This document shows, piece after piece, positions 39,848-62,253 of a stretch of 64,000 nucleotides of DNA (position 1 is its first letter; each line of letters opens with the position of its first letter). The stretch covers positions 1 to 64,000 of the forward strand of contig JAKSZP010017424.1 in NCBI GenBank assembly GCA_022478985.1, given 5' to 3'. The stretch comes from Massospora cicadina. Lineage: Eukaryota > Entomophthoromycota > Entomophthoromycetes > Entomophthorales > Entomophthoraceae. Below the pieces are notes generated by a model. The model was given only the letters and a program-made list of their open reading frames with translations. It did not search any database and was not told the origin of the DNA. Made by a program: the position numbers and the translations under genes.

Positions 39848-40134
39848 GGGGGTGGAAGGTGAGTTGGTAGGGCATATGGCTACCAACCTGAAGGTTGCAG
39901 ATTTGAGACCACCCTTTGCACATTGATTGGGGTGCCAGCCAAAGGAAGCTATTGGCAGTTAGTAGGTCTAATAACACGAAAATCTTACCCAGGATGTAAC
40001 CAGAAAAATTTGAGTCCCAATCCAGAGGTGGAAAAACTTTTCTCAACGGAGTTGACCCTGTTCAGGTTTCATGTCATTTCATTCTTTTGGTAATGCCTGT
40101 CCCCAGGTCGTCTTGCCTCAAATAAATATAAATG
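39848..40134 (+). repeat. tRNA-derived SINE, copy 2
   Basis: It matches copy 1 (19,051-19,332, minus) over its length. The tRNA-like head has GGTGAGTTGGTAGGGC and CTACCAACCTGAAGGTTG. The body runs through GCCAGCCAAAGGAAGCTATT, and the tail reads TGCCTGTCCCCAGGTCG then TCTTGCCTCAAATAAATA. A 10-bp TSD, GTTGGTATTA, lies at 39,838-39,847 and 40,135-40,144. The T arm is more decayed than in copy 1. Confidence 0.87.
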
Positions 40135-40784: not shown

Positions 40785-40801
40785 TAGTTCTTTACGCTTA
40801 T

Positions 40802-40823
40802 TGTAACTTTCTGAGCAAAGTTA
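40802..40823 (+). promoter_or_regulatory. 5' hairpin of ORF1-only copy 1
   Basis: Perfect 8-bp arms GTAACTTT and AAAGTTAC around CTGAGC, 17 nt from the element's 5' end. Copies 2 and 3, and LINE B/C, have hairpins at the same place with different stem sequences. Confidence 0.85.
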
Positions 40824-40868
40824 CATGAACTTATACAAATCAAATTTTCCTGTAGTAGTTTCACTCTG

Positions 40869-42560
40869 ATGTCCTCAGATTCTCCGCCAGCTGCTCCAGT
40901 GTGGGGCAGCAGTGAAACTCCCCCCACCATTTCTTTCCGGCAGGAAAATGCACTAGGACTGGTTCACCCAGTCACTCCTAACACATGGGCCAATTCAATC
41001 CGCCCAAGGACCTAGACGCCCACCTTGCTTGTACCCAAGTGGTACCATGCTGCCCCCTAGTACTCCCCCAGAGCAACAAGCGCCACAGCCTAAGGGTCAA
41101 ATATGGGAAATTTTTCTCATATTATGACCAAGCCATTATCAAAATGGCACAGGAAGTGATGAAACCCACCAGCTTTATTGATTTCTGCCCCTACAAGGGG
41201 TATTTCAACCTTGGCTTCACCTGCAAAGCTGACGCTGCCACTGCAGCAACTGTGCCTCTGGTATTCCAGGGCACCCCTCTCCCCACAACTCGGACTCAGC
41301 TCCCAGCGGACACAACTTTGGTGGTCTAGTTTGCTGGTTTGCCCACCCACCTCCCCCCTGCGGTGCTTTACCAAGAACTGATGGACGGTTTGGAAGCCTA
41401 AGGCTCCAACCCCATCTTACAATTTGTGGTCCCAAATAAGGCCACATGACTTGCTGGGCCTCAGGCGTATGCCACAATAAGCCCTGAATTTAATAAAATT
41501 GTGGTGGCAATTCTGCAACACACCATTATTCCCTCAGTGCCTGACCATCCATTTTGGGCCCACATCGAGGGTGGGCGGATGATCTGTCCATCATGATTTA
41601 AGTTAGACCACTCAAAATGCAAGTGCCCCTTCTTAACCACTTCAGGCAGATTGGATGACTCATCTGCTGACCTCCAATCTGCTGCCCACCCTGTAAAATT
41701 TCTGGCATGGGGCACAATCCTACCTCCTCCGCCCCCAAAGCCTGTTGCTGCAGCTGCACCTGCAGCCACCAATCAGCCTCCTCCTCACCCCAATGCCATA
41801 AATAATTCCTCCAATCAAGCATCAGATTGGATTCCAGTTCAATCCTATGCTTCCTCAAATGAAATGACCAAACCTCAACTGTACGCTGATTCCCCAATCC
41901 AATTCAACCAAAACCCATGGGAATTATTGGCTGAAATTGATGAATCAGGTAAGTTCATTGAAGAACCATCTCTGCAAATTGAACAGTTTGTTAATGCAGA
42001 ATGGGATGCCAGATACCCCCCTCAACTTTATACCCCACATCCAAATGCCGAATCATTTTGCAGTGATCACCAGCTTGCAGTCAAATCAGCTGCAACACCA
42101 GATTGTCATCCCCTGCGTAAAGCTGTTGCTAAATCAGTAGCGATACTCAAAGGAGGAATTCCACCTCATGTTATCCTCACAACCTTACCTCCAAAAAGCA
42201 AAATATTTTTGAACCAGTATTACAAAGCTGCAAATGATGCTATCCAGAATGTGGCAACTATAGCACGGAATCCAAAAGCAAAAATAACCTGAACCAACTT
42301 TACCACATTCGTTAAACTCCCAGATGCCCAAATTAAAGCTGAAAAAGCTTCAACCAAATATCTCAGTGCCATTTACCTAGCTGGCAATTTCCATGAAATT
42401 TCAATTATTAGAGATATTGAACCACATACCACAGATGCCCCAACGCCATTACTGACGACTGTGACATGCACCCTACTATGGGAGGAAGAAGCTGCTGCTG
42501 AAGAGGCTGCTAAAGACGAGCCCCCTGACCCCCCCTCCCATTCTGCCATGGAGGGATAAG
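40869..42560 (+). pseudogene. ORF1-like protein, copy 1, frameshifted
   Basis: Start MSSDSPPAAPVWGSSETPP at 40,869. A frame change leads to NPPKDLDAHLACTQVV and RVKYGKFFSYYDQAIIKMAQ. The family signature SFIDFCPYKGYFNLGF lies at about 41,170-41,220. The zinc knuckle (41,578-41,634) reads ICPS-stop-FKLDHSKCKCP, so the second cysteine codon became TGA. After a proline-rich linker, the C-terminal domain NPWELLAEIDESGKFIEE (about 41,910-41,965) runs through SDHQLAVKSAATPDCHPLRKAV to a stop at 42,290. It resumes in the same spirit to TTDAPTPLLTTV and PPDPPSHSAMEG. Its layout parallels LINE ORF1 proteins. The function of the C-terminal domain is unknown to me. Confidence 0.8.
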
Positions 42561-42713
42561 CGGCTTCCGCTGCCCACCTGGTTGGTCAGTTTTAAAAGCG
42601 TTTCACTCAATCCGCTCATTAGGGCGTTTTGTTTGAACCAAGTAGTTATGTTAGTCTTTAGTATATTTTATTTTCAGTAATGTCCATCCCTGGTCAGCTT
42701 GCCTCAAAAAAAT

Positions 42714-42730
42714 AGGAATCTACCCTGAAA
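42714..42730. repeat. TSD of ORF1-only element 1 (right)
   Basis: AGGAATCTACCCTGAAA, the partner of 40,768-40,784. Confidence 0.95.
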
Positions 42731-43501: not shown

Positions 43502-43526
43502 ATGCAATGGTCAATCTCTCTTTAAC

Positions 43527-43549
43527 CGCTCAAAGTCACTTTTTGAGCG
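43527..43549 (+). promoter_or_regulatory. 5' hairpin of ORF1-only copy 2
   Basis: Perfect arms CGCTCAAA and TTTGAGCG around GTCACTT. The loop contains TCACTT, as in the LINE B/C 5' hairpin. Confidence 0.85.
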
Positions 43550-43603
43550 ATTTTAAATTTAAGTCTTATTTATCCACAGCCGTCTGCCCAAACCTATTCT
43601 TTG

Positions 43604-45227
43604 ATGTCCTTGGCTCTGCCGCCTGCTACCCCAGTGTGGGGCAGCAGTGCACCCCCACCTAGCGTTTTCCGCCCTGCAGGCAAGCACGTTCAGACAGGTT
43701 CAAACAGCCCGCCCACTGCTTCCAACCGTTTTGTCCCCCCATGAGACTTAGCGCTCCACCTGGCGCGCGTCCACCCTTCTCGCCCCCATCCTCTCGCCCT
43801 CCCCCGCTCTGCTATTCGCTATTGCCTCAGAGTGGACTATGGGCGTTTGTTCCCACATGCTGATAAGGCAATTATTGACCTAGCCACTACAGCCTTTGCG
43901 CCAGCTGGCTTTATAGACTTCCGCCCTTTTAAGGGCTACTTTGACGTTGGGTTCCAATCTGAGGAGGATGCTGAAGCGGCAGCACAAACTCCTCTAATTC
44001 ATACAAAAACCCCATTCCCACAACCCATACTCGCCTCCCTTTAGACACCACGCTAGTGGTATCCTTTGAAAATCTTCCATCCCACCTTCCACCTCAGGTT
44101 TTGTATGACCAGTTGGTCGCGGGGCTCATGGCTTATGGCACTCAGACTAACCTCATCTTTGCCATTCCATCTGGTGCAGAACGCCTTGCTGCTCCTCATG
44201 CAACAGCCACCATCATACCACACCACCCTACCATAGCCCAACAAATCCCACCCCGCGCTAGTGTGACTGCAGCGCCTGATCATTTTTTTGGGCTCAGGTC
44301 AATAATGGTAGGCAGATTTGTTCCCACTGCTTTGGCCTCGACCATGCAAAAAGAGCGTGCCCTAAGGCCAAATCCGCTGATGCAGCTTCTGAGCCCCCCT
44401 CTGGAGGTTCAATATGGGGCGCTTTGCTGCCCCCTCCCACCCTACCAGCCAATCAGAGCAATGCTTGGACCAACATTCGCACCCAAGCAGCTGCCCATTC
44501 GCCCAATCCTACCCACTCAAATTTAAACGCCACTATTCCAGTGAACCAAAATCCATGGGATCCATTGGCTGAAACTGACGAATCAGGTAATATCCTCATT
44601 AGTAAGCATACAGGTCAACCTCTCTGCCAAGGCAATTATGGTTGGGCAGAATTTTTCCTTTCTGACTTTGATGAAACCCCTACCTCTCGCCATTTTGCTC
44701 TTCTGCCCAATACAGCTCCCTACCAAAGTGATCACCAGCTCACCTTAGCTGCGGTGGCCTCTCCTCAGTGCCCAAAACTATGCACTGTGGTGGCCCAGTC
44801 AGTGGCTCAGCTCCAGCATGGCCTGCCCACCATCTTCTTCCCCCCAACTTCCCCGAATCTCCCTGCAGTGACATCTCAAAACTATTTGATGATGCTGAAA
44901 TCACTGTTATGAATGTTGCAACGCTTGCTTCATTCAACCCCTCAGCCAAAATCACCCGCCACAGTATCTCCCTTTTCACCCAATTTCCTGAAGCCCACAA
45001 AGAAGCTGAAGTTCTCCTCGCAGCTTTTGTTGAAACACTTTCCCATCATTAATTTGATGCAGAAGTGGAAAACTCCTACTACGCTGACCTCAGCCCCCAC
45101 TATGCAGATGCCCCAACGCCCTGGCTCTCTGCTCTGATCCGGTACTGTAACCAACACCCCTTGATCAAGGTGGGTCTTTCTGAAAACCAACCCCCCGACC
45201 CCTCCTCACCCTCTGCCATGGTGGGTT
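43604..45227 (+). pseudogene. ORF1-like protein, copy 2 (best-preserved reading)
   Basis: Start MSLALPPATPVWGSSAPPPS at 43,604, with one TGA at 43,742-43,744 (copy 3 has glutamine there). Then DLALHLARVHPSRPHPLALP and RVDYGRLFPHADKAIIDLA. FIDFRPFKGYFDVGFQSEEDAEAA lies at about 43,911-43,980. DTTLVVSFENLP then LPPQVLYDQLVAGLMAYGTQ is at 44,045-44,140. The knuckle ICSHCFGLDHAKRACPK (44,322-44,374) is intact (C-x2-C-x4-H-x4-C). A proline-rich linker leads to the C-terminal domain: NPWDPLAETDESGN (about 44,550), YQSDHQLTLAAVASPQCPKL, YADAPTPWLSALIRYC, and PPDPSSPSAMVG before TAA (45,227-45,229). Two frameshifts are evident. Confidence 0.82.
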
Positions 45228-45228
45228 A

Positions 45229-45241
45229 AGCAGTTTCTGCT
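45229..45241 (+). promoter_or_regulatory. Stop-codon hairpin of ORF1-only copy 2
   Basis: AGCAG-TTT-CTGCT starting at the stop codon. Copies 1 (42,559-42,571) and 4 (62,118-62,131) have AGCGG...CCGCT, i.e. a paired G-C to A-T change in the stem. Copy 3 has a longer hairpin at the same place. Confidence 0.75.
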
Positions 45242-45340
45242 TCCCACCTGGTTAGTAGTTTGTTTTGCCGTTTTGAGTGTTGTGATTGGTATGTCTGTCC
45301 CTGGTTGGCATATCTCAAATAAATCGAAAATGCAATGTTC

Positions 45341-45578
45341 AGGATCCACCTTTTTGAGGGACTACCTGGCAAAAAGTCTATCAGGTAATTTAATAGTTTA
45401 TTTGTAGAATGCACCATCTTTGTTGATAATCCTTAGGAGGTTATTTCCATGAACTTTGATATATAAAAGTCGAAAAATTTATGAAAAAGATCTAGTAAAG
45501 TTTGCAAACTATTTCCTAAACAATAGTAAAAATAACACAAATTTTTTTCACTAAAACTGTACTCATATTTGTTAACTT
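45341..45578. other. Short spacer before LINE B
   Basis: AT-rich, no recognised feature. Confidence 0.5.
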
Positions 45579-45591
45579 TTGATAGTAATTT
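45579..45591. repeat. TSD of LINE B (left)
   Basis: TTGATAGTAATTT, identical to 50,858-50,870. Confidence 0.92.
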
Positions 45592-45610
45592 TTCAAAACA
45601 TTTCTTTCTC

Positions 45611-45630
45611 GTTGCAATCACTTTTGCAAC
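45611..45630 (+). promoter_or_regulatory. 5' hairpin of LINE B
   Basis: Arms GTTGCAA and TTGCAAC around TCACTT, about 20 nt from the 5' end, identical in LINE C. A second small fold (AATCTC/GAGATT) follows at about 45,662-45,681. Confidence 0.75.
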
Positions 45631-45836
45631 CTATTCAATTCAAGTCTGAATCTAGTTTGATAATCTCGCAGAGGAGATTAGTCTGCGCCCATGTCAGGGA
45701 GAAGTTGGGCAAGTAAGGTAAGAGGAGCAGGTGGAAGGCCCACAGCCTCAAACGTTTGAAAACGCCCGGGAGAAACTGGCGGAATAGACAAAAGTTTTAA
45801 AAAACTGGAGGTCACTATTTCTCCAGAAATCTATAC

Positions 45837-47107
45837 ATGGCAAGCACGATGCAACCAGTACATCAAAACGCCACACTCCCAGCCACTTTTGTTGGTGGAA
45901 TATGGAGTCTGCATGTTTCTGGACATCCAACAAATGGCTTTATGGGAAAATCTGTGAAAATGTGCACACCTTTTTCCCGACCACAGTGTATGTCGCACCT
46001 CACTCCATGTCACGCGGTTGGCTGGACCTAGGTTTCAAAAACAAAGAGGCAGCAGATGAGGCTGCTGCGGTTCACATAGTGGTCAACCTCCCCGAAGGGC
46101 AATGGGTTTGTCAAAACCAAATGCACCAGATGGACAAAATCAAACCAAACTTTCCTCACATTTGACTTTTTGCCTACTATGGTAAAATGTGCCATTTTGG
46201 AACAACACCTGAAAGATGGTATCACCATATATGGTAAAATACAATCTTTCGACATGCAACACTTCACACTGATGCCACACCTGTGCACTGGCAAAGCCAT
46301 TGCAGTTCTGACCCTGACCAAGGAGATCGTGAAGGACCTAACCCAAATCCTGCACTCCACTTTTATTAATATCACAGGGCATACCACCCACCCATTCCAG
46401 GTGACTGTGGACAGCGCGCCCCCCATCTGCACCCACTGTGATGCATTCAGCCATAAGGCGCATGCATGCCCCACCAAGGAGGGCGTCACATTCCAAGAGC
46501 ACCCCTCGGCAGCCATGGCCAGTGGAGAGGCGCACTATGAACCAACCACAAGCACCAAAGAGGCTTTCCCATGGGGAGCACAAGGTTGGTACCTACTGAT
46601 AAAGCCTATCTCCCCGCAAGAGCGGAAGAAGGCCAGGCAGGCCTTCAGGGCCATGGCCAAGGAAGCGGCCAAAGCCACCACTGCTATCCCGCACATCCAA
46701 CACCAGGAGGACATTGAAACCTTTGTGGCAGAAGCAACTCAGGAATCCATCAACCAATCAAATTGGGAAGCCCATGCCAATTGGGCCACTCAATCCAAGG
46801 ATCCGACGGGGGACTCAATCTCACCCAATCGTTGTACCCAAGATCCAGTAGAAACTGACTTGGGGCTCATTTAACTGAAAAAATTTTTTTGACCCACTCA
46901 ATGGTGCACCAAACTCTTCCGCACCACAAAAATTTTTCTGACGTCGGGGAAACAAAAGTGAAGGCAAATGCCAATGCAAAACTTTCTGCAAAAATTAACA
47001 AAATTACTTATAGTGTTGCTGCAAACATCCGCGCTGCTGTGAAGGCCTGTGGGGATCTAGAGGAGGCTAGTGGGCCTGGGTGCCCACCCCTCACACCTAA
47101 GGTGTGA
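45837..47107 (+). pseudogene. LINE B ORF1 with CCHC knuckle
   Basis: MASTMQPVHQNATLPATFVGG opens the ORF and MASTM is aligned in LINE C (MASMM). SMSRGWLDLGFKNKEAADEAAAVHIVVNLPEG follows after a frame change and corresponds to the FIDFRPFKGYF...GF.seeDA block of the ORF1-only elements. A 234-codon frame (46,170-46,874) then holds ICTHCDAFSHKAHACP (about 46,425-46,472), an intact C-x2-C-x4-H-x4-C knuckle, and an acidic/alanine-rich tail. The last part (46,889-47,107: AKINKITYSVAANIRAAVKACGDLEEA) is in another frame and ends TGA at 47,105-47,107. In LINE C this C-terminal half is one uninterrupted frame. Confidence 0.85.
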
Positions 47108-47109
47108 TG
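47105..47109 (+). promoter_or_regulatory. TGATG stop-start overlap between LINE B ORF1 and ORF2
   Basis: The ORF1 TGA (47,105-47,107) overlaps the ORF2 ATG (47,107-47,109). The same TGATG is kept in LINE C (58,597 to 58,593). Overlapping stop/start codons are used for coupled reinitiation in some known LINEs (for example SART1), which suggests the same here. Confidence 0.7.
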
Positions 47110-50100
47110 GGGGAAACCTTTACTTTAGGGATGTTGAATATCGCTGGACTCAAGGCCTCACCATCCCAGGCTAGAAAACTGAGTTTTTTACAAAAATTTA
47201 CCCATGGATATCCTAGCCATCAAGGAGTCCCACTGTCCACAAGGTTCTGAGGAGGCTTGGAAATCCATGCTCCTACCATCCCTATCCTTTTGGTCAAAGC
47301 ACTTTGGGGTGCTAATTTGGAGAAAAAATCTCTTCAAATTTTTATTGTCAAAAACATTCCTAAATGGCTGAGTTCTCATTGTCACTTTCTCGTGGGCTGA
47401 CGTGGTACATGCAATCATCAACATCTATGCCCCAAATGGTGCACGAGAGCGTCAGAAATTTTTCTCATCAGTCAAATTCCTCCTGCTACCCCCAGACCCT
47501 TTTGTAGTCGGCGACATGAACTGTTGGCTACACTCCAACGGACCAGTGGCCTTCCTCACCCCACGCCCCCCAGGGTCACATAGAACTGCGCGTTCTAAGG
47601 CCACCCTCAGGTTAATGGATGCGCTGCTGTGGCATGCCCCGCTGCTCAAAAACATGATGTGCCCCCACATCCACAACGGCCAATTAAGGTCCATGACCCG
47701 CATCAACATTTTCCTAATGCTGACGAAATTCCAACCCCACATCTCCCACTTTAAAACAAAAAAAGTGGAATTCTCTAACCATTGGATGGTCTCAATAACC
47801 TACCACCTACCTGTCACATCTGCTAAGGCCCCACATTGGTGCAAAATCTGCCCCCCGAGCTTGCATCACCAGGATTTTCACTTGAGTGGAAGATACAACT
47901 TTGGCAAAAGAGTTTGTAACGCCGTTTTGCATGGACCCCATCTCCACATGGGCAACCTTCAAAGAGGATACCATCCGCCACTCTTGCCACCTCTCCTTCA
48001 GACACTCACAAGCCACATCGCAATCATTTCGCGCACTCTGGCAGAATTGGCACACCTGGAGTCCAATATCCCCGCTACAGGATATAGCCCTGCATGGGGC
48101 CAGAAGTGGGCAGAGGCAGCCGCCCACCTCAACGCGCTTGAAAGGCAACACAAACATCAGGTTTGTGTTCAATACAGGGCCAAACACATCACAAAGGGTG
48201 ACAAGTGCACCACATATTTTTTTAAAAAATTTTGCACCACGCCAGAGCGTGGCCTGCACACAGGTGTAAAGATATGATGATTCCATCGCGGATACACCAG
48301 CTGAAGTGGCAATCGAAACACAGAAGTATTACTCCAAGCTATACCGATCTGATCCAATTCAGCCAGCCAAAGTGACAGAATTTCTTGACAGAGCCCACAT
48401 CTGCACCATTTCTCAATACCTGGAAATAATGAATTTAATTACTCTGAACAAATTATGGAAATCCATATGCGGTGCACCTAACCGGAAATGCCCAGGCCCA
48501 GATGGCATCCTATATGAATTCTACAAAATACTTCAATATATATCCCCACTGCTGCTCGCTTCACTTAACCAGAGCCTGTTGGATACGCGCCTCCTGCCAG
48601 GAGGACAAGAGGCCTTCACCGTCACACTTTTTCAAAAAAAGGGGATAAGCTAGACTTAGCCAACTGGCGTTCCATTTCTTTAACCAACATGGATACTAAA
48701 ATTTTAACAAAAATCATGGCTAACCATTTAGGGATTATAGCATCTGCCACCATCTCCCCAGAGCAATTCAGCTTTATACCCAGAAGGTCGATCTGGGGTA
48801 ACGTGCACTCTGTGGCTAATGCATCTCAGTCCACAGCCTCTGAGGCACTTGTATCCTTAGACCAACAGAAGGCCTATGATAGAGTAAACTGGGAATACCT
48901 CAGGGCCTGCCTCCATCAATTCTGCTTACCCCCTCGCTTCATCAACTGGGTGATGCTGCTCACAGAATTTGCAACAATGGCAGTGCATGGCCTTGGCTTC
49001 CTAATGGAAGTAGTCCGCCCTCAAAGGGGCTTGCGATAAGGGGACCCCCTCAGCCCCCTCTTATACAACTTCAGCCTTGACCCACTACTGCGAAATGTGA
49101 ATGCCCAACTCACTGGGGTTCATGTGCCAGGCCAAGCCCCAATCAATATGATGGCGTTCGCAGATGATTGTGTGGTTGGGGTGTCTAATAGTCAAGATGC
49201 ATGCGCACTTGAAGCTCTCATCCAGGAGTTTTCCCGGGTAAGTAACGTGGCACTGCATGCTTCCAAAACCAAAATCATCCTCCTTGGTCAGTCTCATAAC
49301 TGCTGGGCCCCAGCAATTAGTTCCCAACCCAGCCCATCTGCTCGCCCATGTCCTCGCCCTACAAGCTCAACACACACCGCCCCACTGGTGCTCCCCTTCA
49401 TGCCACGCCCTACCATAGGACCGGTACGCCATCTGGGCGTGTGGATGGAGGCAGGCAGATACGCGTCAGCAGTAATAGAGAGCCATATTCTGGACAAGGT
49501 GACGAAGCGAATCGCCTCTCTCAGAGTCCACCCTACTTCCCTTACTGGCAGGGTTGTTTTAGCTAACTCTATGCTCCTCTCCAAAGTCTGGTTTGGAGCC
49601 CACGCCATCCCTTTCTCCCCAAGCTTCCCTTAAATCCTTGTATGCCCTGCTGCAAGGATGGCTTTGGTCAGGCCGCCCTCCACCAGTATGGCTAGAGGTC
49701 ATGTTTGGCCCTCATCATCATGGTGCCATTGGTCTACTCGACTTCAGAGCCCATGCTGCCAAGATCTTGGGTACCTGGATATCAGCCGTCACCGCCCCTA
49801 TGCTCCCCTCCCAACACTGGTCCCGCACGGCCTGCCCAACTTCTCCTGAGCCTTGGGCCTCAACAATCCATCGAACCCCCACTCCCTGATGAAATACCTG
49901 GCTTCACACCTATTGGCCACAGGTCCTCACGGTACTAAAACCCACTACAAACTAATCCTACTCCCCATGCGGAGCACTGAGTGGAGAATTTGTATTAGCG
50001 AACATACAGCCCAGAGAGGCCGCCCCTCTCCTCAGTTCACACAAGAGGTACAGGGGCTACCCATCCAAAATGGCATGATCCCCATATAAACCCATGTCCT

Positions 50101-50752
50101 ATCCAGGGTGGACTACCTGGACATGATGGACATCCCTTACTCCATTGAGACCCAAAAAACCATCTGGAAATACGCTCACCACCCTCTGGTGCAGCCTCAA
50201 ATCCGCTCCCACGTGTGTTACTGCCTGAGGCGGGTGTACCATACAGCTGAGCGCTCTAACGCTTTACACTCATCCTGTGTCGTGTGTGGCCAGTATGGAA
50301 CGCTGTTCCACCGCCTGGAGAAGTGCCCTACCTCAAAAGTAATATGGCGCAAAGTTCAACGTTTACTGGGCTAGGATCAAACGCATCCCTTCAGTCTGTC
50401 AATAGATATGTTTGCTCTATCAATGGCCTCCTCCCTTCCACCCTCCCTCCGTGCTTTGGTGGTTGCAAGCCATGTGGACCATCCACACGATTGTCTTAGA
50501 TGCCATCGCAGGCTCCACCCCCACCCTCCCAGAAGCTGTCCACAGATTCCAGTCTCATTTGGTGGACCACTTTCAAGCATGGATGTTTGGATACCTCCCA
50601 CTGCGCCGCTGACAGCTGGTATCCTCCTGGTTCCCAGTTTGGTTCAACAAATCAGACCCCTTCCTCCACACGTGTTCAATTGTGGCTACGGCCCCTTCAT
50701 GCGTTCCCTCCCCTTCCCCATAAGTGGCGTTCCCGCTGACAACAAGAAATAG
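47107..50752 (+). pseudogene. LINE B ORF2: endonuclease, RT, zinc finger
   Basis: MGETFTLGMLNIAGLKASPSQ begins the endonuclease. INIYAPNGARERQKFF and VVGDMNCWLHS (47,415-47,530), TRINIFL, and SNHWMVSI (about 47,775; the usual SDH is SNH) follow. The RT has NRKCPGPDGILYEFYK (48,480-48,530), DLANWRSISLTNMDTKIL, FIPRRSIWGNVHSVANA, DQQKAYDRVNWEYLR and RGLR-stop-GDPLSPLLYNF (TAA at 49,037-49,039 in place of glutamine). The catalytic MAFADDCVVG is at about 49,150-49,180. The C-terminal zinc finger CVVCGQYGTLFHRLEKCPTSKVIW is at about 50,275-50,350. About 1,215 codons. The FADD box is intact; the gene is interrupted at several points. Confidence 0.9.
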
Positions 50753-50857
50753 CATCGCTTCTCTGGTATGCCTTCCCTGGTACTAAGTTTTGTCTCTTCT
50801 GAGTCATATTTGGAAGTGTCCATCCCATGGTCGGCCTTCCCCGCAATAAATTCAGAG

Positions 50858-50870
50858 TTGATAGTAATTT
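50858..50870. repeat. TSD of LINE B (right)
   Basis: TTGATAGTAATTT, the partner of 45,579-45,591. Confidence 0.92.
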
Positions 50871-51697: not shown

Positions 51698-51707
51698 ATT
51701 GCTTTAT
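51698..51707. repeat. TSD of ORF1-only element 3 (left)
   Basis: ATTGCTTTAT, identical to 53,628-53,637. Confidence 0.8.
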
Positions 51708-51811
51708 CTTTTTAGTATTAGTGGTGCCCAACCCAAAAGGGGGAGCCGCCACGCATCTTTATTTGCAAATGGGCCAAACAAAGGGATTATCATAAATTAA
51801 AAAATTCTTAC

Positions 51812-51845
51812 TATAGCCCCTAGGTTATCAGCCTAGGAAGCTATA
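51812..51845 (-). promoter_or_regulatory. Stop-codon hairpin of ORF1-only copy 3
   Basis: Outer arms TATAGC/GCTATA and inner arms CCTAGG/CCTAGG surround the TAG stop (51,833-51,835 on the minus strand). It occupies the same position as the AGCGG/CCGCT hairpins of the other copies but is longer. Confidence 0.7.
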
Positions 51846-53525
51846 TCAGATGGCGAGGAGGCTTTGAGGAAGCATTTGTCCGGCGCCCACTTTAGCTGGC
51901 AGACCATGGCGGACAGCATTGTGGTGGGAGCATCAGCAACATGAGGCATAAGGAGGTATATTTGGGGGTTTTCTTCATTAATGAGGCTGGCGGTGTCCAT
52001 CAACTCAATGTATTGAGCAAGTTGATGCTCAGCAAAATTGATGAGAGCTGGCACACAAGTAATGACTTTATGTGCTGTTGGGTTTGTATATAATTGGGGT
52101 CAAAAAGAGAAGTTTTTTCTGCATAGATGCAAGTGTGGCTCGCACCAAAAGCAAGCTCCTCAATTTTGTACTTCGCATCTTCCTCAAAATCATGAGGAAA
52201 ATTGGGGATAGGATATCCTCAACAAGGGGCTCCATTGCCCCTGGAGTTGCTGGTGGAGGAGGGTGTTGGCTGGGGCAGCTGCAGCCACAACTGCAATATC
52301 ATTGATATTTTTATAAATGGGAAACCCATTTTTTGGATGAAAACAGTGGGAATGTGATTCAGGAAGGTCAATGAAGAACTCCTTTAAAGCAAAATTGGGT
52401 TTCACATGGCACAGCCGTCCATCCTCCTCAATCCATTTGAGAGCCTCAAATGGATTGGATTCAGCCAGCGCTGGGCCAGCCACTAGAATTGGGGCTGTGG
52501 CCAGAGCTGATTGACCACATGCTGTCTACCATGGCAGCTCAGCTGAAACTGGTTCAACCATCAACTCAGGATTCCATAATCCAGTTAAATTTTCAAAATT
52601 TAGTATTTTTTTAAATCTTGATTGGCTGATGCTTTTGAAGCAGCTCCAGGAATTCCCTGACATTGGGAGTGGGAGGATCAAGCCCCATTTAAAAAATTGG
52701 GGCGAGGAAGCCGCCAGGGCAGCACCCAGGCCCTGGGCAGTAGATGCAGCAGAAGTGGCAACCATGGGGCACTTGCACTTCAAGTGGTCAAGCTTAAAGC
52801 ATAAGGGGCAAATGGCGTGGCCATTTTTGGTGCGCGCCCAGAATGGGTGATCCGGGCAGATCTGATCACAGTGCGGGGGGAATTGTGAGGTGAGAGTTTC
52901 AATGAAATGGGCAGATCATTTGCAAAGGCGTGAGGCCCTGCCAAATGATCTGCCCCATTGGAAACTACAAACTGAACATGGGGTCTGCGCCATAAATGGC
53001 CAAACCCTCCATGAGCTTGTGGCAGAGGCGTTCAGGGGGAAAGGAAAGAGGGCAACCTGGCGAACTGGACCACCAAAGTGGTCTCATCCGGGAGCTGGGT
53101 GCAAATGGTGGGAATGGGAAATTTCTATAAATGATTTGCAGCTTGGCTGCTGTCGCTGCATCAGCTTCTGAACAGAATCTGAGGTTGAAATACCCCTTAA
53201 AGGGGCGGAAGTCAATAAAACTGGCGGGTTTGAAAACTTCTGTGGCCATCTCAATGATGGCTGCGCTTGCATATGGGAAAAGTTTCCCATATTTGACCCA
53301 GAGGCTGAAATGCAAATTGCTCCGTGGGAGCACCAAAGGGCTCTGGAGCACCGCCTGAGAGATAGCGAGATGGTGGGCCAAGTCCTGAGGGGGAACATAA
53401 CACCTGGTAGCGTTGGGAGGGCTAGCAGAGCCAGCCCTGGCGCGCTTTGGCGGTGGCTGAAAGATGCCAGATGGCGGCACACCACCACCCCAAGCCAGGG
53501 CAGCAGGCATTGATTGCATTGACAT
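51833..53525 (-). pseudogene. ORF1-like protein, copy 3
   Basis: MSMQSMPAALAWGGGVPPSG opens a 186-codon frame. It contains YVPPQDLAHHLAISQAVLQS, VKYGKLFPYASAAIIEMATE and SFIDFRPFKGYFNLRFCSEADAATA, and ends near 52,965. The knuckle AICPLCFKLDHLKCKCP (about 52,766-52,819) is intact. The C-terminal domain is in later frames: NPFEALKWIEEDGRL (52,405-52,450) and YLLMPHVADAPTTMLSAMVC (about 51,900-51,965), ending SDIAS at 51,833. It matches copies 1 and 2 block for block, with enough divergence to show these are old separate insertions. Confidence 0.82.
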
Positions 53526-53584
53526 CAGTAAGGTTTGTCTTGATTGAGCAGTTGTTTTTTGTATTTTTTAAAAATCCAAATTTT

Positions 53585-53606
53585 GCTTCAATTTGGGTAT
53601 TGAAGC
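53585..53606 (-). promoter_or_regulatory. 5' hairpin of ORF1-only copy 3
   Basis: Arms GCTTCAAT and ATTGAAGC, perfect 8 bp around 6 nt, about 21 nt from the element's 5' end. Confidence 0.85.
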
Positions 53607-53627
53607 GAAAGAAAGATTTTTAGGTTT

Positions 53628-53637
53628 ATTGCTTTAT
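53628..53637. repeat. TSD of ORF1-only element 3 (right)
   Basis: ATTGCTTTAT, the partner of 51,698-51,707. Confidence 0.8.
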
Positions 53638-54829
53638 AAAAGGGTATTTATAAAATTCTTATAAAAGGAAAATTGTGGAAATAGTGGGAGAATGGCTAAA
53701 ATCAGGGTTATAATTTTCAATATTCCTTGGCAAAATCATTTTTTCATATATATGATGTCATAAAAGTAGCACACTTTTAAAAATTTTTAACTTTATAAAA
53801 TGGGTGGCGGTACTGAGGGACTTACCTGGGTACTTCTAACGTCTTGATAAAGATGAGGGATTTCTCTACACAGGAGCTTAACCTTTTCAAAATACCAAGT
53901 GCTAAGCAGGAGGGGTATTGGAAGTGGGAACAAATATAGGATATTTGTAATATAGAATTGCCTTTTTCTACCTGAAAAAGGGGTAGTAGGCACCACCTAG
54001 CTTCTTGTCCTTAGTGGAAGTCCTTATAATTAGTTTTTAACCTCAATTGTTTAACCATTATACTATAGCTAATATATAGGACCAGATAGTACTATAAAAG
54101 AATGCAGTTGAAGTATAGAAGTATAGAAGTATAGAGACTCACTATGTTTATGATACCAAATTAATATAAAAAATAGTTGTTGAGTATCTATATAAACTTT
54201 ATATCAAAGAAAATTAAAATTGATATGCGGTCTTTGGCCACTATTGATACTTTTTTAGATAAGATTGTATGAGAAATCCAATTCTGAGATAAGTAATAAC
54301 AATACCCTTCTAAATGTTCTGAGAGAAAGCTATTATTTACAAAATTCTACTTTTTTATATTATCAAACAAATTTTATGTAAGGTAGGAACATCCTAGGCA
54401 TTGTTCATTAACAAATTTTTTATAAAAGAGGCTAATAAAGTGTAATAATTTTTACATAACCGTTTTCACATATTGACATGAAATACTCTAAATATAAGCT
54501 TTAGTAGGCTAATTTTTGCCTTTTTGGTTTTATCAGAGGCATTTTATTAAGTCATCTTTACCCAGATATCATGTTTTGTAATTTTTGCTTACTCTATAAA
54601 CAAAGTCCTTTATTAAAACCACAATGGTGTGTGAGCTTAAAGATTATACTTAAGTGTGGTAGATAGACACTACTAAAACTAGGACATCCTCTGCTAGACT
54701 GTGCATTTTTATATAAGTATATATTTTGAAAATAAGATAGTGTAAAAAACTGTTTGTATAATTTTAAACCAAAGGTGTATGTTATAGGGTGTATTTAAGT
54801 ATGCGTCTATTATGTAGAGATATATGTAT
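53638..54829. other. AT-rich spacer, no gene recognised
   Basis: Very AT-rich. GTATAGAA is repeated in tandem near 54,114-54,134. A small frame (53,793-53,996, minus) has no recognisable content. Confidence 0.5.
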
Positions 54830-54843
54830 AGGGTAAACTGATT
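54830..54843. repeat. TSD of LINE C (left)
   Basis: AGGGTAAACTGATT, matching AGGGTAAACAGATT at 60,109-60,122 with one mismatch. Confidence 0.88.
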
Positions 54844-54949
54844 TTTTTAAATTTATTGTGGGGAAGGCTGACCATGGGATGGACACTTCCAAAATTGACT
54901 CGCCTGAGACAACACTTAGTAACAGGGAAGGCACCCCAGAGAAGCGATG

Positions 54950-57900
54950 CTATCTCTTGTTGCCAGCGGGAACGCCACTTATGGGGAAGGGGAGGGAACG
55001 CATGAAGGGGCCGTAGCCGCAATTGAACACGTGTGGAGGAAGGGGTCTGATTTGATGAACCAAACTGGGAACCAGGAGGATACCAGCTGTCAGCGGCGCA
55101 GTGGGAGGTATCCAAACATCCACGCTTGAAAGTGGTCCACCAAATGAGACTGGAATCTGTGGACAGCTTCTGGGAGGGTGGGGGTGGAGCCTGCGATGGC
55201 ATCTAAGACAATCGTGTGGATGGTCCACATGGCGATTGCAACATCCAGAGTATGGAGGGAGGGTGGAAGGGGGAGGCCATTGATAAAGCAAACATGTCTC
55301 TTGACAGACTGAAGGGATGTGTTTGATTCTGGCCCAGTAAACGTTGAACTTTGCGCCATATTACTTTTGAGGTAGGGTACTTCTCCAGGCGGTGGAACAG
55401 CGTTCCATACTGGCCACACACGACACAGGATGAGTGTAAAGCGTTAGAGCGCTCAGCTGTATGGTACACCCGCCTCATGCAGTAACACACGTGGGAGCGG
55501 ATTTGAGGCTGCACCAGAGGGTGGTGAGCGTATTTCCAGATGGTTTTTTGGGTCTCAATGGAGTAAGGGATGTCCATCATGTCCAGGTAGTCCACCCTGG
55601 ATAGGACATGGGTTTATATGGGGATCATGCCATTTTGGATGGGTAGCCCCTGTACCTCTTGTGTGAACTGAGGAGAGGGGCGGCCTCTTCTGGTTGTATG
55701 TCCGCTAATATGAATTCTCCACTCAGTGCTCCGCATGGAGAGTTGGATTCGTTTGTAGTGGGTTTTAGTACCGTGAGGACCTATGGCCGATGAGTGTGAA
55801 GCCAGGTATCTCATCAGGGAGTGGGGGTTCGATGGATTGTTGAGGCCCAAGGCGCGGGAGAAGTTGGAGTGGGCTGCGCGGGACCAGTGTTGGGAGAGGA
55901 GTGTAGGGGTGGTGACAGCTGCAATCCAGGTACTTAAGATCTTGGCCGCATGGGCTCTGAAGTCAAGCAGGCCCATGCCACCGTGCTGATGAGGGCCAAA
56001 CATGACTTCTAACCATACAGTGGAGGGCGGCCTGACCAAAGCCATCCTTGCAGCAGGGCATGCAAGATTTGAAGAAGCTTGGGGAGAAGGGGATGGCGTG
56101 GGCTCCAAACCAGACTTTAAAGAGGAGCATAGAGTTGGCCAAAACGACCCTACCAGTAAGGGAAGTAGGGTGGGCTCTGAGGGAGGCGATGCGCTTTGTC
56201 ACGTTGTCTATAATATGACTCTCCATTACTGCTGATGCATATCCGCCTGCCTCCACCCACACGCCCAGATGGCGGACTGGCCCTGTGATAGGGCGTTGCA
56301 CAAAGGGGAGCACCTGTGGGGCGGTGTGGAGTGAGCTGGGAGGGAGAGCGCGTTTGTGAGAAGATGGGCCAGGCTGGGCACTGGTTGAAGGGGTCCAGCA
56401 GTTTTTATCTGACCAAAGAGGATGATTTCGGTTTTGGAGTCGTTCAGCGCAGCGTTACTTACCCAGGAATACTCCTGGATGAGAGCTTCAATTGCGCGTA
56501 CATATTTATTATTAGACACCCCATCACACAGTCATCTGTAAACGCCATCATCTTGACTGGGGATTGGCCTGGCACATGGACCCCAGTGAGTTGGGCATTC
56601 GCGTTTTGAAGTAGTGGTTCAAGGCTGAAGTTGTATAAGAGTGGGCTAAGGGGGTCCCCTTGTCGCAAGCCCCTTTGAGGGCGGACTACTTCCATTAGGA
56701 AGCCAGGGCCATGCACTGCCATTGTTGCAAATTCCGTGAGCAGCATCACCCAGTTGATGAAGCGAGGGGGTAAGCAGAATTGATGGAGGCAGGCCCTGAG
56801 GTATTCCCAGTTTACTCTATCATAGGCCTTCTGTTGGTCCAAGGATGCCAGTGCCCCAGAGGCTGTGGACTGGCACGCGTTAGTCACCGTGTGCACGTTG
56901 TCCCAAATCGACCTTCTGGGTATGAAACCAAATTGTTCTGTGGAGATGGTGGCAGATGCTACAATCCCTAAACGGTTAGCCATGATTTTTGTTAAAATTT
57001 TTGTATCCGTGTTAGTTAAAGAAATGGAACGCCAGTTGGCTAAGTCTAGCTTATCCCCATTTTTTGAAAAGTGTGACGGTGAAGGCCTCTTGGCCTCCTG
57101 GAAGGAGGCGCATTTCCAAAAGCTCTGGTTAAGTGAGGCCAGCAGTAGTGGGGATATATATTTGAAGTACTTTTTATAGAATTCATATAGAATGCCATCT
57201 GGGCCTGGGAATTTTCAGTTTGGTGCACCATGAATGGCTGTTCATAATTTGTTTGGTGTGATCAAATTCATTATTTCCGGGTATCAGGAAATGGTGCAGA
57301 TGCGGGCTCAGTTGAGAAATTCTGCCACTTCAGCTGGCTGAATTGGATTGGATCGGTACAACTCAGAGTAATACTTTTGTGTTTTGATTGCCACTTCAGC
57401 TGGTGTATCCGCAATGGAATCATCCAATCTTTGCACCTGTGTGCAGGCCACGCTCTGGTGTGGTGCAAAATTTTTTTTATAAAATGCGGTGCACGTGTTG
57501 CCTTTTGTGATGTGTTTGGCCCTGTACTGAATACAAACCCGATGTTTATGTTGCCTTTCAAGCGCGTTGAGGTGGGCAGCTGCCTCCACCCACTTCTGAC
57601 CCCATGCAGAGCTGTATCCTGTAGCCGGGATGTTGGACTCCAGGTGTGCCAACTCTGCCAGAGTGCACAAAATGACAGCTGACATGGCTCATGAGCATCT
57701 GGAGGAGAGGTGGCGAGACTGGCAGATGGTATCTTCTTTGAAAGTTGCCCATGTGGAAATAGGGTCCACACAAAACGGTGCAACAAACTCTTTTGCCAAA
57801 GTTGCTGATTCCACCCATGTGGAAAATCCTGGTGATGCAAGCTTGGGGGGCGGATTTTGCACCAATGTGGGGCCTTAGCAGCTGTGACAGGTAGGTGTTA

Positions 57901-58595
57901 GGTTATTGAGACCATCCGATGGTTGGAGAATTCCATTTTTGTTGTTTTAAAGTGGGAGATGTGGGGTTGGAATTTCGTCAGCGTTAGGAAAAGGTCAATG
58001 CGGGACATGGACCTTAATTGGCTGTTGTGGACAGGGGTGCATCATGTTCTTGAGCAGCAGGGCTTGCTGCGGCAGCACATCCATTAACCCAAGGGTGGCC
58101 TTTAGAATGCAAAGTTCAATGTGGCCCTGGGGGGCGTGGGAGGAGGAAGGCCACTGATCCGTTGGAGTGTAGCCAACAGTTCATGTCACCGACTATGAAA
58201 GGGTTTGAGGGTAGCAGGAGGGATTTGACTGATGAGAAAATTTTCCGACGCTCTTGTGCACCGTTTGGGGCATAGACATTGATGATAGCGTGTACCACGT
58301 CAGCCCACAAAAAGTTGACAATGAGGACTCAGCTATTGAGTAAGGTTTCTAACAATAAAAATTTTAAAAAATTATTTTTCCAAATTAGCACCCCACAGTG
58401 CTTTGACCAAAAGGATAGGGATGGGAGGATCATTGTTTTCCAAGCCTCCTCAGAACCTCGTGAACAGTGGGACTCCTGGATGGCCAGGATATCCATGGGT
58501 AAATTTTGTTGTAAAAAACTCAGTTTCCTAGCCTGGGATGGTGAGGCCTTGAGTCCAGCGATATTCAACATCCCTAAAGTAAAGGTTTCCCCCAT
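54950..58595 (-). pseudogene. LINE C ORF2: endonuclease, RT, zinc finger
   Basis: MGETFTLGMLNIAGLKASPSQ at 58,595 opens the endonuclease, followed by DILAIQESHCS. INVYAPNGAQERRKIFSS and IVGDMNCWLHS lie at 58,180-58,290. The RT part (56,983-56,459) keeps FGFIPRRSIWDNVHTV, DQQKAYDRVNWEYLR and QRGLRQGDPLSPLLYNF. The catalytic box reads MAFTDDCVM (about 56,530-56,556), where LINE B has FADD. The zinc finger CVVCGQYGTLFHRLEKYPTS (about 55,345-55,420) has its last cysteine changed to tyrosine. Frameshifts break the rest. Confidence 0.88.
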
Positions 58596-59867
58596 CACAC
58601 CTTAGGTGTGAGGGGTGGGCACCCAGGCCCACTAGCCTCCTCTAGATCCCCACAGGCCTTCACAGCAGCGCGGATGTTTGCAGCAACACTATAAGTAATT
58701 TTGTTAATTTTTGCAGAAAGATTTTGCATTGGCTTTTGCCTTAACTTTTTGTTTCCCTGACGTCGGACAAATTTTTTGTGGTGCAGATGAGTTTGGTGCA
58801 CCATCGAGCAGAGCAAAAAAAAATTTTCAGGTAGGTTGAAGGCTAAGTCAGTTTCGACCAGAGCTTGGTTGCAAAGATTGGGAGAATTCAAGTTGCCCAT
58901 CAGATCCTCAGATTGGGTGGCCCAATCGGTATGGGCTTCCCAATCTGATTGGTTGGTGGATTCCTGATTTGCTTCTGCCGCAAAGGTTTCAATGTCCTCC
59001 TGGCGTTGGGAGTATGGGATAGTGGTGGTGACTTTGGCCACTTCCTTGGCCGCAGCCCTGCGGGCCTGCTTGGCCTTTTTCCACGTCGTGGGGAAATAGG
59101 TTTTACCAGAAGGTAGCAGCCTTGTGCTCCCCACGGGAAAGCCTCTTTGGTGCTTACGGTTGGTTTGTAGTGAGCCTCTCCGCTGGCCATGGCCGCTGAG
59201 GGGTGCTCTTGGAATGTGATGCCCTCCTTGGTGGGGCATGTGTGTGCCTTATGGCTGAACGCGTCACAGTGGGTGCAGATGGGGGGCGCGCTGTCCATGG
59301 TTACCCAGAAGGGTGGGTGGTATGCCCTTCAATGTTAATAAAAGTGGAGTGTGGGATCTGGGTTAGGTCCTTTGCAATCTCCTTGGTTGGGGTCAGAACT
59401 GCAATGGCTTTGCCAGTGCACAGGTGTGGCATCAGCATAAAGTGTTGCATCTCAAAGGATTGTATTTTGCTGTATACAGTGTGACCAGCTTTCAGGTGCT
59501 ACTCCAGAATAGCACACTTGACCATAGTGGGCAAAAAGTCGAACATGAGGAAAATTTTGGTTGGATTTTGTCCATCTAGTGCATTTTGTTTTGACGACCC
59601 ATTGCCCTTTGGGGAGGTTGACCACTATGTGCACCGCAGAAGCCTCGTCTGCTGCCTCCTTGTTTTCAAGACCTAGGTCCAGCCAACCATGTGACATGGA
59701 ATGAGGTGCGACGTACACTGCTTTGGGAAAAAAGTGTGCACATCCCCACAAAGTTTTCCCATAAAGCCATTTGTTGGATGTCCAGAAACATGCAGACTCC
59801 GTATTCCACCGATGAAAGTGGCTGGGAGTGTGGCGTATTGATGTACTGGTTGCATCATGCTTGCCAA
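58595..59867 (-). pseudogene. LINE C ORF1
   Basis: MASMMQPVHQYATLPATFIGG at 59,867 opens the ORF. A frame change follows, to YVAPHSMSHGWLDLGLENKEAADEASA (about 59,650-59,740). The knuckle ICTHCDAFSHKAHTCP is at about 59,240-59,285. A 214-codon frame (59,239-58,595) carries the basic and acidic linker and the helical C terminus AKINKITYSVAANIRAAVKACGDLEEA, ending TGA overlapped with the ORF2 ATG. Confidence 0.85.
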
Positions 59868-60108
59868 GTGAGGATTTCCAGGGAAATAGTGACCGCTGGT
59901 TCTTTAAAATTTTTGTCTATTCTGCCAGTTTCTCCGGGGCATTTTCAAATGTTTGAGGCTGCAGGCCTCCCACCTGCTCCTCTTACCTTACTTGCCCAAC
60001 TGCTCCCTGACATGAGCGCAGACTAATCTCCTCTATGAGATTTATCAAACTAGATTCAGACTTGAATTGAATGAGTTGCAAAAGTGATTGCAACGAGAGA
60101 GAAAAGTT

Positions 60109-60122
60109 AGGGTAAACAGATT
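60109..60122. repeat. TSD of LINE C (right)
   Basis: AGGGTAAACAGATT, the partner of 54,830-54,843. Confidence 0.88.
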
Positions 60123-60337
60123 AGTCATCTATAAATACATCCTTGTATTAAATATGTGATACAAAAAGTTCTACATCTATAGATAAAGATGAGTTAATGA
60201 TTCTATACCTAATTGTATTTTTAAATAGTTTATCTTCAATATTACTGAGGTAACTTTAAATATTTGTAGTAGTCAAAAATTTGTCAATTTTTTTCTAAAC
60301 CTAGTTGTACTAAAATTTTACAATCATCTTTTCTTTC

Positions 60338-62253
60338 CGCTTAATCTCATTTTTGAGTGAATTTTATTAAAAAAGTTTATTTTACCACCGCCTCTAGCCA
60401 CGTCCATTCTCCAATTGATGTCCTCAGATCTGCAGCTGGATGTTCCAGTGTGGGGAAGCGGTGCTCCGCCACCTAGAATTTTTTCTCTGCGGGAAAATGC
60501 ATTTTAAGGGGCTCAAGTAATTCACCAACCTCCTCTGGCCAATTTGTCCCCCATGGGACTTAACGGTCCATTTTGCGTGCATCCACCCTTCTTGCCCACA
60601 CCCTCTCGCCCTTTCTCATTCCAAAACTCATTTTTGCCTCCATGTTGACTACAGGCGTTTATTCCCTATGCCAACAAAGCAATAATTAAGTTATCTACCA
60701 CTGTCTCTGCACAGGCTGGCTTTATAGATTTTCGCCCTTTTAAGGGCAATTTTGATATAGGCTTCCAAATGGAGTAGGACACTCCAGCATCGGCTTTGAC
60801 TCCCCTAATTTACAAAAACACTCTAATTCCTACTACCCATACTCACCTCCCATTCAACACCACTTTGGTAGTGTCATTTGCTCCTCCCTTCCCACCTCTC
60901 ACCCCAAATTTTGTATGAACAGTTGATGGTGTGGCTTTTGGCTTATAGCTTATGGCTTATGGCACTCAACCCAACCTTGTCTTCACTATTCCCTATGGTG
61001 CAGAGCGCCTTGCTGCACCTCGCTCCACTGCCACCATAAGCCCAAACCACCCCACCATAGCCCAATGAATCCCCATGCTCATATCACATCGGTGCTAGAG
61101 CATTTCTTTTAAGCTTGTGTTGATAATGGTTGAAAAATTTGTCCTCTCTGTTATAGGTTTGACCATTTAAGAAATCCTGCCCCTAAACCACTTCCTCTGT
61201 TGTGGCTTCTGGACAATTGTCACTGGCATCTAAATGGGGTGTTTTTTTGTCGCCTAACACCACCCACATGAGCTTACAGGGGTCAGAGTGGGAAATCTGC
61301 CCCCACCAAATCATCTGACCACATTCACCCACCTGAATTCAACCCAGCCAATCAGAGTCAGGTTTGGACTACTATTTTCACCCAAGCATCCACCCATTCT
61401 CCTACTACAACCCACCAAATTCAGCCTCCACTTTCTAGTGAACCAAAATTTCTTAGGACCTATTGGATGAGGTTGATGAATCAGGTAAAATTATCGCAAA
61501 TGAGAACGCGGTCAACCTATCAGCTCAGGTGTTTATGAATGGGCCAAATTATATAATTCTGATTTTTACAAATCCCTCTCGCCCAAACGCTTCACTCCTA
61601 AACCCAATGCCATCCCCTACCAAAGTGACTACCAGCTCGCCTTAGCAGCGGTGGCCTCACCCCATTGCCACCACCTCCACAAAGTAGTGGCTAATCAGTT
61701 GCTCAATTCCATGAAGGGCTAACCACAATTGACTTCCCCCCTGATTTACCTAAAGCAGCGCAGAATAAAATCATCAAATTGAAAGATGATGTCCTAGATG
61801 CTGTCTTTCTTGTTGCAAAACTAGCAGCATTCAACCCATCTTCTAAAATCAACTGGCTTGTTATATCCAGTTGAGCACAATTACCAGATTTCTGCCTTCA
61901 AGTTGAACATCATGTAACAGAATTAGTTGAGGCCATCTTCCAAGATGATCTTGAGGAAGGTAACCAATATTTCAACCACATCCATCCTCACCACGCTGTT
62001 GGCCCAACGCCCTAGCTCTCCACTTTTGTCCGCTACTTAAACCATTGTGATTCTGTCATGAGCAACAATCCTGTAGCGGAGCTGCTTGACCCCCCTCCCC
62101 CTCTGTCATGGTGGGTTAGCGGTATTCCGCTCCCTGCCTGGTTAGAGGTTCTGCTTTGTTTTAATTTTCTTTTTGTCCAGTTTTTTTGCTCGATGAATAT
62201 TGGTAATGTCCATCCTCTGCTTGGCGTACCTCAAATAAATTAGAAAAAATATC
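60338..62253 (+). mobile_element. ORF1-only LINE-derived element, copy 4 (most decayed)
   Basis: About 1.92 kb. ACAATCAT plus CT-rich flank at 60,320-60,337 and at 62,254-62,270 looks like an imperfect TSD. The ORF start, stop-codon hairpin (62,118-62,131) and tail (TGTCCATCCTCTGCTTGGC then GTACCTCAAATAAATTAG) all match the family. The 5' hairpin (CTCA/TGAG near 60,346-60,358) is short. Confidence 0.82.
60418..62118 (+). pseudogene. ORF1-like protein, copy 4
   Basis: Start MSSDLQLDVPVWGSGAPPPR at 60,418, with a TAA after about 32 codons. In later frames: AGFIDFRPFKGNFDIGFQME (about 60,718-60,775), ILYEQLMVW (60,908), LDEVDESGKIIANEN (about 61,465-61,510) and LAAVASPHCHHLHKVV (about 61,645-61,690). 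The knuckle region (61,120-61,180) is too damaged to confirm. It is inactive and clearly older than the other copies. Confidence 0.75.

Follow-up and report, generated by a model that had tools for sequence, protein, structure and literature searches.

Introduction

HAL1 elements encode only the first open reading frame (ORF1) of a long interspersed nuclear element (LINE), are flanked by target site duplications (TSDs) and depend on the reverse transcriptase (RT) and endonuclease of a full-length LINE (PMC5322556). Several independent origins of HAL1s are described in mammals (PMC5753468). HeT-A, at Drosophila telomeres, is described as a non-long-terminal-repeat (non-LTR) element encoding no RT (PMC5537684). 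In stringent-type pairs of a LINE and a short interspersed nuclear element (SINE), such as those of eel UnaL2 and zebrafish ZfL2, which are reported in the CR1, Tad1 and RTE clades, the partners have a common 3'-terminal stem-loop; the zebrafish LINEs read it mainly by its loop, and a stem swap in ZfL2-1 gave about half the rate (PMC4176376). Here we describe four insertions (copies c1 to c4, each giving its name to a subfamily) in a 64-kb window of the genome of the fungus Massospora cicadina, the whole stretch of DNA that was analysed, which is part of contig C15061. They are probably non-autonomous, ORF1-only retrotransposons derived from LINEs, a fungal counterpart of HAL1, which would be mobilised in trans by a LINE that recognises their tail. 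We favour this reading because of their fixed ends, private flanking repeats, the failure to find an RT in them, the homology of their ORF1 and the selection on it, and the hairpins that they share with neighbouring LINEs.

The elements resemble HAL1 in encoding ORF1 only, with no endonuclease or RT found, and in being flanked by TSDs: the flanking repeats score at least 10 in 42 of the 53 c2- and c4-type copies, on flank bases only, a level that 6 of 1000 mismatched pairs of flanks attain. They differ from it in that the 3' tail is structured and is not poly(A), in their fungal host and lack of mammalian L1 ancestry (the ORF1 core being homologous to that of the local LINE), in the CCHC zinc knuckle and large C-terminal half without database match in ORF1, and in a 5' hairpin that is also shared with the LINE. 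An earlier note on this DNA, made from the letters alone, had named HAL1 as the nearest parallel; this stands for the ORF1-only coding and the TSDs and fails for the poly(A) tail and the mammalian L1 ancestry. As in HeT-A, whose one protein is Gag, no RT was found; unlike HeT-A, the Massospora copies are dispersed with private flanking repeats and do not form telomeric head-to-tail arrays. As with the partners of stringent-type LINEs, c1, c4 and five fetched copies share the tail of a neighbouring LINE (LINE A), although c3 does not; the passenger here differs in being protein-coding and in sharing a 5' hairpin as well, and its tail would have to be bound by the RT. The novelty is that ORF1-only coding and stringent tail sharing, each known separately, are combined. 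No ORF1-only LINE family in a fungus was found in open-access titles and abstracts, most subscription papers, the HAL1 paper included, lying outside this search. M. cicadina is reported to show a LINE expansion that sets it apart from its relatives (PMC11105155), and ORF1-only families may bear on it. They also raise the question of why ORF1 is kept when the RT is borrowed.

Four ORF1-only insertions and their relatives in the genome

Copy c1 lies at 40785..42713 on the plus strand, with a TSD at 40768-40784 / 42714-42730 (17/17 bases). Copy c2 is found at 43514..45329, plus strand (TSD 43502-43513 / 45330-45341, 11/12 bases), c3 at 51708..53627 on the minus strand (TSD 53628-53637 / 51698-51707, 10/10 bases) and c4 at 60328..62245, plus strand, with an imperfect TSD at 60312-60327 / 62246-62261 (14/16 bases). 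All four are about 1.8-1.93 kb long and 69-70% identical to one another in long alignments (blastn in the window). The elements end in an AATAAAT-like motif followed by a few A/T-rich bases, with no poly(A) tail. No fifth copy was found in the window at E 1e-5 when blastn was run with each of the four units. The earlier note had seen four insertions of one layout and near-equal length with TSDs, and both the blastn results and the direct repeats at all four copies bear this out. Two details had to be amended: the start of c4, which had been placed at 60338, moves to about 60328, and c3 is read on the minus strand. The ORF1-only copies had been recognised, and two RT-bearing LINEs and two SINEs with shared termini had been overlooked.

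Each copy has one ORF1-like frame, which begins at an ATGTC lying 84-102 nt in from the 5' terminus and contains frameshifts and stops; when read through, it is 562, 545, 562 and 515 residues long in c1, c2, c3 and c4, respectively. The CCHC zinc knuckle (C-x2-C-x4-H-x4-C) is intact in c2 (44319..44360, plus strand) and in c3 (52769..52810, minus strand). A stop stands at its second Cys in c1 and the last Cys is lost in c4, and the single ORF1-like gene with a knuckle damaged in copies 1 and 4, as first described, was thus confirmed copy by copy. No RT or endonuclease profile, in agreement with the absence already noted, was detected in the pieces scanned (five ORFs of copies 1-3 and the four read-through ORF1s), and the sole profile matches, to Kunitz_legume (E 0.048) and MCP_C (E 0.29), were below the cut-off or at chance level. 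An RT regularly following ORF1 had been named as a sign against an ORF1-only family; none was seen, and the ~1.9-kb unit is immediately bordered by the flanking repeats.

The 1,469,884,898-base assembly was searched with each unit, and for each query the best copies by shared words (24-40) were scored. Because the scored copies are those sharing most words, complete copies are favoured and the share of full-length ones is biased upward. With c2 as the query, 38 of the 39 other copies (best 40 of 6225 candidates) ran end to end at 93-96% identity, starting at query base 1-12 and stopping at 1815-1820, and the remaining one was cut by a contig end. These matches come in two pieces because the window copy of c2, the youngest subfamily seen, lacks 78 nt that its relatives have. 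Matches in one piece, end to end, were obtained for 36/39 others with c1 (best 40 of 13225 candidates), 32/39 with c3 (best 40 of 15310 candidates) and 24/39 with c4 (best 40 of 9149 candidates), three more c4 matches being in two pieces. The 53 copies scored for flanking repeats comprise 28 of c2 type and 25 of c4 type, window copies included and five incomplete c4-type loci dropped, and the count rises to 44/53 if element-end bases are allowed into the repeats; among fetched copies of the other two subfamilies, 5/6 (c1) and 7/7 (c3) reached a score of at least 10. A less biased measure than the best-copy lists is a genome word count, which covers the 5'-terminal word of c2 only: this 24-mer, exact in 23 of the 28 c2-type copies, has 867 exact occurrences in the genome as compared with 0 for its reversed control. 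Each of the window insertions stands for a subfamily whose ends are fixed. The search for full-length copies with TSDs that the earlier note had suggested gave the above counts with private repeats, and its idea of a propagating family rather than random truncation is supported, in a sample selected in this way, by the end-to-end copies and their private flanking repeats.

An origin of the units, many times over, from ordinary LINEs by internal deletion or 5' truncation is very improbable. Matches starting well inside the unit would fit such an account, and they were found in 12/39 cases for c4, where the 5' part is missing, in 5/39 for c3 and in 1/39 for c1. However, at least two of the 12 c4-type exceptions (L038 and L056) look like complete units split by an interruption of about 0.9 kb, length and ends are equal in the four subfamilies, and no counterpart of the C-terminal half of ORF1 was found in LINEs A and B, on which ground simple deletion derivatives of these two are rejected.

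Neighbouring LINEs, homology and selection of ORF1

LINE A occupies 45592..50860 on the plus strand (5.27 kb), with an ORF1 containing a CCHC knuckle, an RT and a 10/10 TSD (45582-45591 / 50861-50870). LINE B occupies 54844..60107 on the minus strand, with a 14/15 TSD (60108-60122 / 54829-54843). They are 89% identical over 5274 bp and carry RVT_1 matches (E 1.6e-19). The RT piece of LINE B matched human LINE-1 ORF2p (E 5.1e-11), an RNA-directed DNA polymerase (6.7e-11) and R2 (5.8e-10) in PDB, and both LINEs are tentatively called L1-like from the first of these, which leads by a small margin. Among the matches listed, 17 of 32 other copies of LINE A were end to end, and a flanking repeat score of at least 11 was found in 6 of the 7 copies read at both ends. 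A LINE of the A/B type is the likely helper of the ORF1-only elements.

The ORF1 of the ORF1-only elements was aligned by hhalign with that of LINEs A and B with a probability of 94.3 (E 9.8e-8) over 145 columns, knuckle included. In the control with 3/4 rows the score was 57.9; 100 column shuffles gave 25.9 at most, and the reversed profile gave 19.2. By this alignment the core and the knuckle of ORF1 have homologues in the ORF1 of the neighbouring LINEs, and the derivation from LINEs that had been proposed is upheld. The core is called RRM-like from its layout, a label with no profile match behind it. The aligned part ends at or shortly after the knuckle, and the C-terminal half beyond it bears the motif NPWxxLAExDESG. 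Searches of Pfam and PDB gave nothing above chance for ORF1, the C-terminal half included, and no autonomous LINE with an NPWxxLAExDESG half was found among the best 24-40 copies scored per query. The protein relatives found were named Massospora cicadina in 4/4 matches and, in a second search in which 8000 candidates were scored, in 1/1.

The ratio of nonsynonymous to synonymous substitution rates (dN/dS) was 0.17-0.50 in 15/15 ORF1 comparisons, in which a c2-type copy (L006) was set against 12 of the 25 c4-type copies and window copies c1, c3 and c4; these ratios are rough and non-independent because dS is 0.96-4.1 and all comparisons share L006. Neutral simulations (30 per comparison) gave means of 0.62-0.75 and minima of 0.41-0.62, and each observed ratio lay below its own minimum. 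This indicates that selection acted on the ORF1 proteins during the separation of the subfamilies, and that ORF1 diverged under purifying selection.

Termini shared with the LINEs

A 3' stem-loop was located in c1 (42677..42702, plus), c2 (45288..45314, plus), c3 (51721..51752, minus), c4 (62202..62230, plus), LINE A (50812..50840, plus) and LINE B (54862..54890, minus). The 3' end of LINE A reads GGAAG-TGTCCATCCCATGGTCGGC-CTTCC..AATAAAT, and those of the ORF1-only elements read GGTAC (or GGTAA)-TGTCCATCCCCTGGTCRGC-GTACC (or TTGCC)..AATAAAT. The L006 tail scored 42 over 42 nt against LINE A, with a maximum of 22 in 5000 shuffles; the 4988 window 50-mers, related tails still being among them, reached 29 at most. 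The tails of 5/5 fetched c2- and c4-type copies and of window c1 and c4 beat all 5000 shuffles; the score of the L044 tail was equalled by window 50-mers three times and that of the c1 tail four times.

When the stems were anchored on the loop, 216 of 255 cells were paired (c1, c2 and c4 types and LINE) as compared with 25-52% when slid, a count that leaves out anchorless rows (c2 4/28, c4 12/25, c1 0/7, LINE 2/9). The fifth pair is mostly C-G in c2, A-T in c1 and G-C in the LINE, and is unpaired in most c4-type copies; the third is mostly T-A, T-G or A-T, differing by group. Judged from these positions, a 3' stem-loop is common to the LINEs and three of the four subfamilies, its loop constant and its stem covarying. 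This loop-constant, stem-varying pattern agrees with the tail recognition described for zebrafish LINEs.

The 5' ends have a layout of their own, in which a pyrimidine-rich tract is followed by a hairpin. A 5'-terminal hairpin is present in c2 (43527..43549, plus), c3 (53585..53606, minus), c4 (60338..60359, plus), LINE A (45611..45630, plus) and LINE B (60075..60094, minus); the 5' hairpin of c1 (40802..40825, plus) differs in register from its relatives and is weak (z -1.24). The hairpin reads GTTGCAA-TCACTT-TTGCAAC in the LINE, CGCTCAA-AGTCACTT-TTGAGCG in c2-type copies and typically CGCTTGA-TCTCACTT-TTGAGCG in c4-type copies. Between the c2 type and the LINE, 4 of the 7 pairs are changed on both sides and the loop TCACTT is constant. 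In the c2 and c4 types and the LINE, 335/392 cells of this stem were paired versus 25-53% when slid, loopless rows being left out (c2 0/28, c4 5/25, LINE 1/9); c3 is in neither pair count and c1 stands outside the 5' one.

Several results weigh against ORF1-only families mobilised by such a LINE. The c3 tail is at chance level, with no sequence relation to that of LINE A (1802/5000 shuffles score as well), and c3 may for this reason use another helper. The window c2 tail is weak, its score against LINE A being reached by 14/5000 shuffles and by 32 window 50-mers. RNAalifold predicted no structure from the MAFFT alignments, and the 3' ends folded weakly as single sequences (z -0.7 to -1.6). At the 5' end, the best stems do not rise above shuffles in the c4 and c1 groups, where 14% and 19% of these, respectively, reach the group mean. 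On the same side stand the rows and subfamilies outside the pair counts, the c4 matches without a 5' part and the roughness of the dN/dS ratios, as well as the frame break of the c2 subfamily.

Frame break in the c2 subfamily

In 28/28 c2-type copies ORF1 changes frame, its second part lying at -1 with respect to the first. The openness of the ORF, which the earlier note had wished to see followed across copies, varies at this place: the frame is continuous in most c4-type (16/25) and c1-type (5/6) copies and shifted throughout the c2 type. The site of the c2 shift is an A-run, of 7 A in 22 copies, 6 in three and 8 in one, with two unparsed; a run of another length would be required for the frame to be open. 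The c2-type copies are 1.5-3.2% from their majority sequence. If the shift is real, intact ORF1 protein (ORF1p) would be dispensable in cis, and a real broken c2 master would mean that the subfamily is parasitic for ORF1p too.

The published draft of M. cicadina (1.488 Gb, 92% transposable elements) was obtained from Nanopore R9 and Illumina data with wtdbg2 (PMC9584336); the assembly searched here is of this Nanopore R9/wtdbg2 kind if it is MCPNR19. For A/T runs in the window, the ratio of runs of 8 to runs of 7 is 0.13, as compared with 0.37 for 7 to 6; for G/C runs the 7/6 ratio is 0.04, runs of 7 being nearly absent. Across window and loci the A/T ratios were 0.13-0.20 (8/7) and 0.37-0.43 (7/6) and the G/C ratio 0.04-0.05 (7/6), the window count being the cleaner one, as the loci mainly represent the same families over again. 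Since homopolymers seem to be shortened in the assembly, the c2 frame shift may be an artefact. For the same reason programmed frameshifting in c2, which 28/28 shifts at one A-run would suggest, was set aside. The apparent depletion of runs of 8 A/T and 7 G/C also means that frames in the repeats of this assembly need care.

These observations bear on the idea that the ORF1-only units are pure RNA parasites, similar to large SINEs, in which the ORF would be a remnant and the LINE would supply every protein in trans. The -1 shift shared by all 28 c2-type copies, which nevertheless form the youngest burst seen, speaks for it. We regard it as unlikely given the dN/dS values between subfamilies and the continuous frame in most c4- and c1-type copies, and given that the shift in c2 may come from the shortened homopolymers.

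A SINE with the same tail and the choice of helper

A SINE of 278 bases lies at 39851..40128 on the plus strand; it terminates in the shared 3' tail, which makes up its final 44 nt, and is flanked by a repeat at 39832-39847 / 40129-40144. A second copy, 84% identical, lies at 19050..19328 on the minus strand with a perfect 17-base flanking repeat. Flanking repeats scoring 10-17 were present in 4/4 SINE copies read, two in the window and two at fetched loci. In the genome, 39 others were 90-92% identical and 36 of them whole-length (best 40 of 5001 candidates). One SINE head gave in Rfam a short T-arm-like piece (tmRNA model, E 6.5e-4, 14.3 bits vs gathering 47), and ARAGORN reported no tRNA, whether in the window or at L058 and L042. 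The SINE is probably tRNA-derived, in view of the T-arm-like piece and of motifs in its head that we take to be A and B boxes.

The SINE tail is 91% identical to the tail of a c1-type copy over 44 nt. The tails of c1-type copies and SINEs are 91-93% alike over this length, closer than LINE A is, and the c3 tail differs from that of LINE A. This could be an indication that the main helper is not A or B but another LINE, perhaps one with the same C-terminal half and a better-fitting tail, a proposal that overlaps with ours. We lean against it, while giving it some weight, as no such LINE was found among the copies scored per query, and as the four LINE A copies read whose matches stop early (near query 4690) carry the usual tail, which also led us to reject a variant of LINE A with a different 3' terminus.

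Proposed mechanism

In the reading that we prefer, transcription of an ORF1-only element would begin at its 5' end and translation of the transcript would yield an ORF1p, made of the RRM-like core, the CCHC knuckle and the matchless C-terminal half, that would coat its own RNA. The RT/endonuclease of an A/B-type LINE would bind the 3' stem-loop, mainly via the constant loop, nick the target and copy the RNA in trans by target-primed reverse transcription. The 5'-terminal hairpin may mark the RNA end that translation or insertion at full length requires. SINEs whose tail is the same would be served by the same enzyme, and subfamilies would diverge in stem and coding sequence and retain the loop that the enzyme reads.

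A wider view, plausible enough to state and held tentatively, is that a guild lives on one enzyme: an L1-like LINE, at least four ORF1-only families with a selected nucleoprotein, and a SINE, nearly all with one 3' loop and a 5' hairpin signal. The subfamilies would then record a co-evolution of passenger RNA and helper enzyme, because stems drift and loops are fixed. Since families, likely helper and SINE co-occur with covarying ends, end swaps could directly test the cis-preference of ORF1p, how the tail loop is recognised and what the 5' hairpin does.

Other observations in the window and at fetched loci

Two stretches at fetched loci, L048:4388-4448 and L013:2320-2394, probably belong to further, more diverged ORF1-only subfamilies, judging by eye from their tail and ORF1 C-terminal end. 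Five annotated Massospora hypothetical proteins, P0001-P0005 (L0F63_002177, 004282, 001756, 000295 and 007425), are apparently pieces of elements and not host genes; P0005, judged by eye, seems to be chimeric, with one piece from an ORF1-only element and one from a LINE ORF1.

A different LINE, LINE C, extends on the minus strand from about 1500 (or less) to 7313, with RT-like and CCHC ORFs seen by eye. Its 5' boundary is near 7313 in most matches, and, with LINE C taken as a contrast, no hairpin of the shared kind was seen by eye at this end. Contig C5919 matches the LINE C region and its 5' flank at 99% and is perhaps allelic or duplicated. Pieces of an LTR retrotransposon, Ty3-like by eye from the RT-like ORF at 19862-20395, lie at 17670-22031 on the plus strand, and an ORF with a long proline run is found at 27081-27449 on the minus strand.

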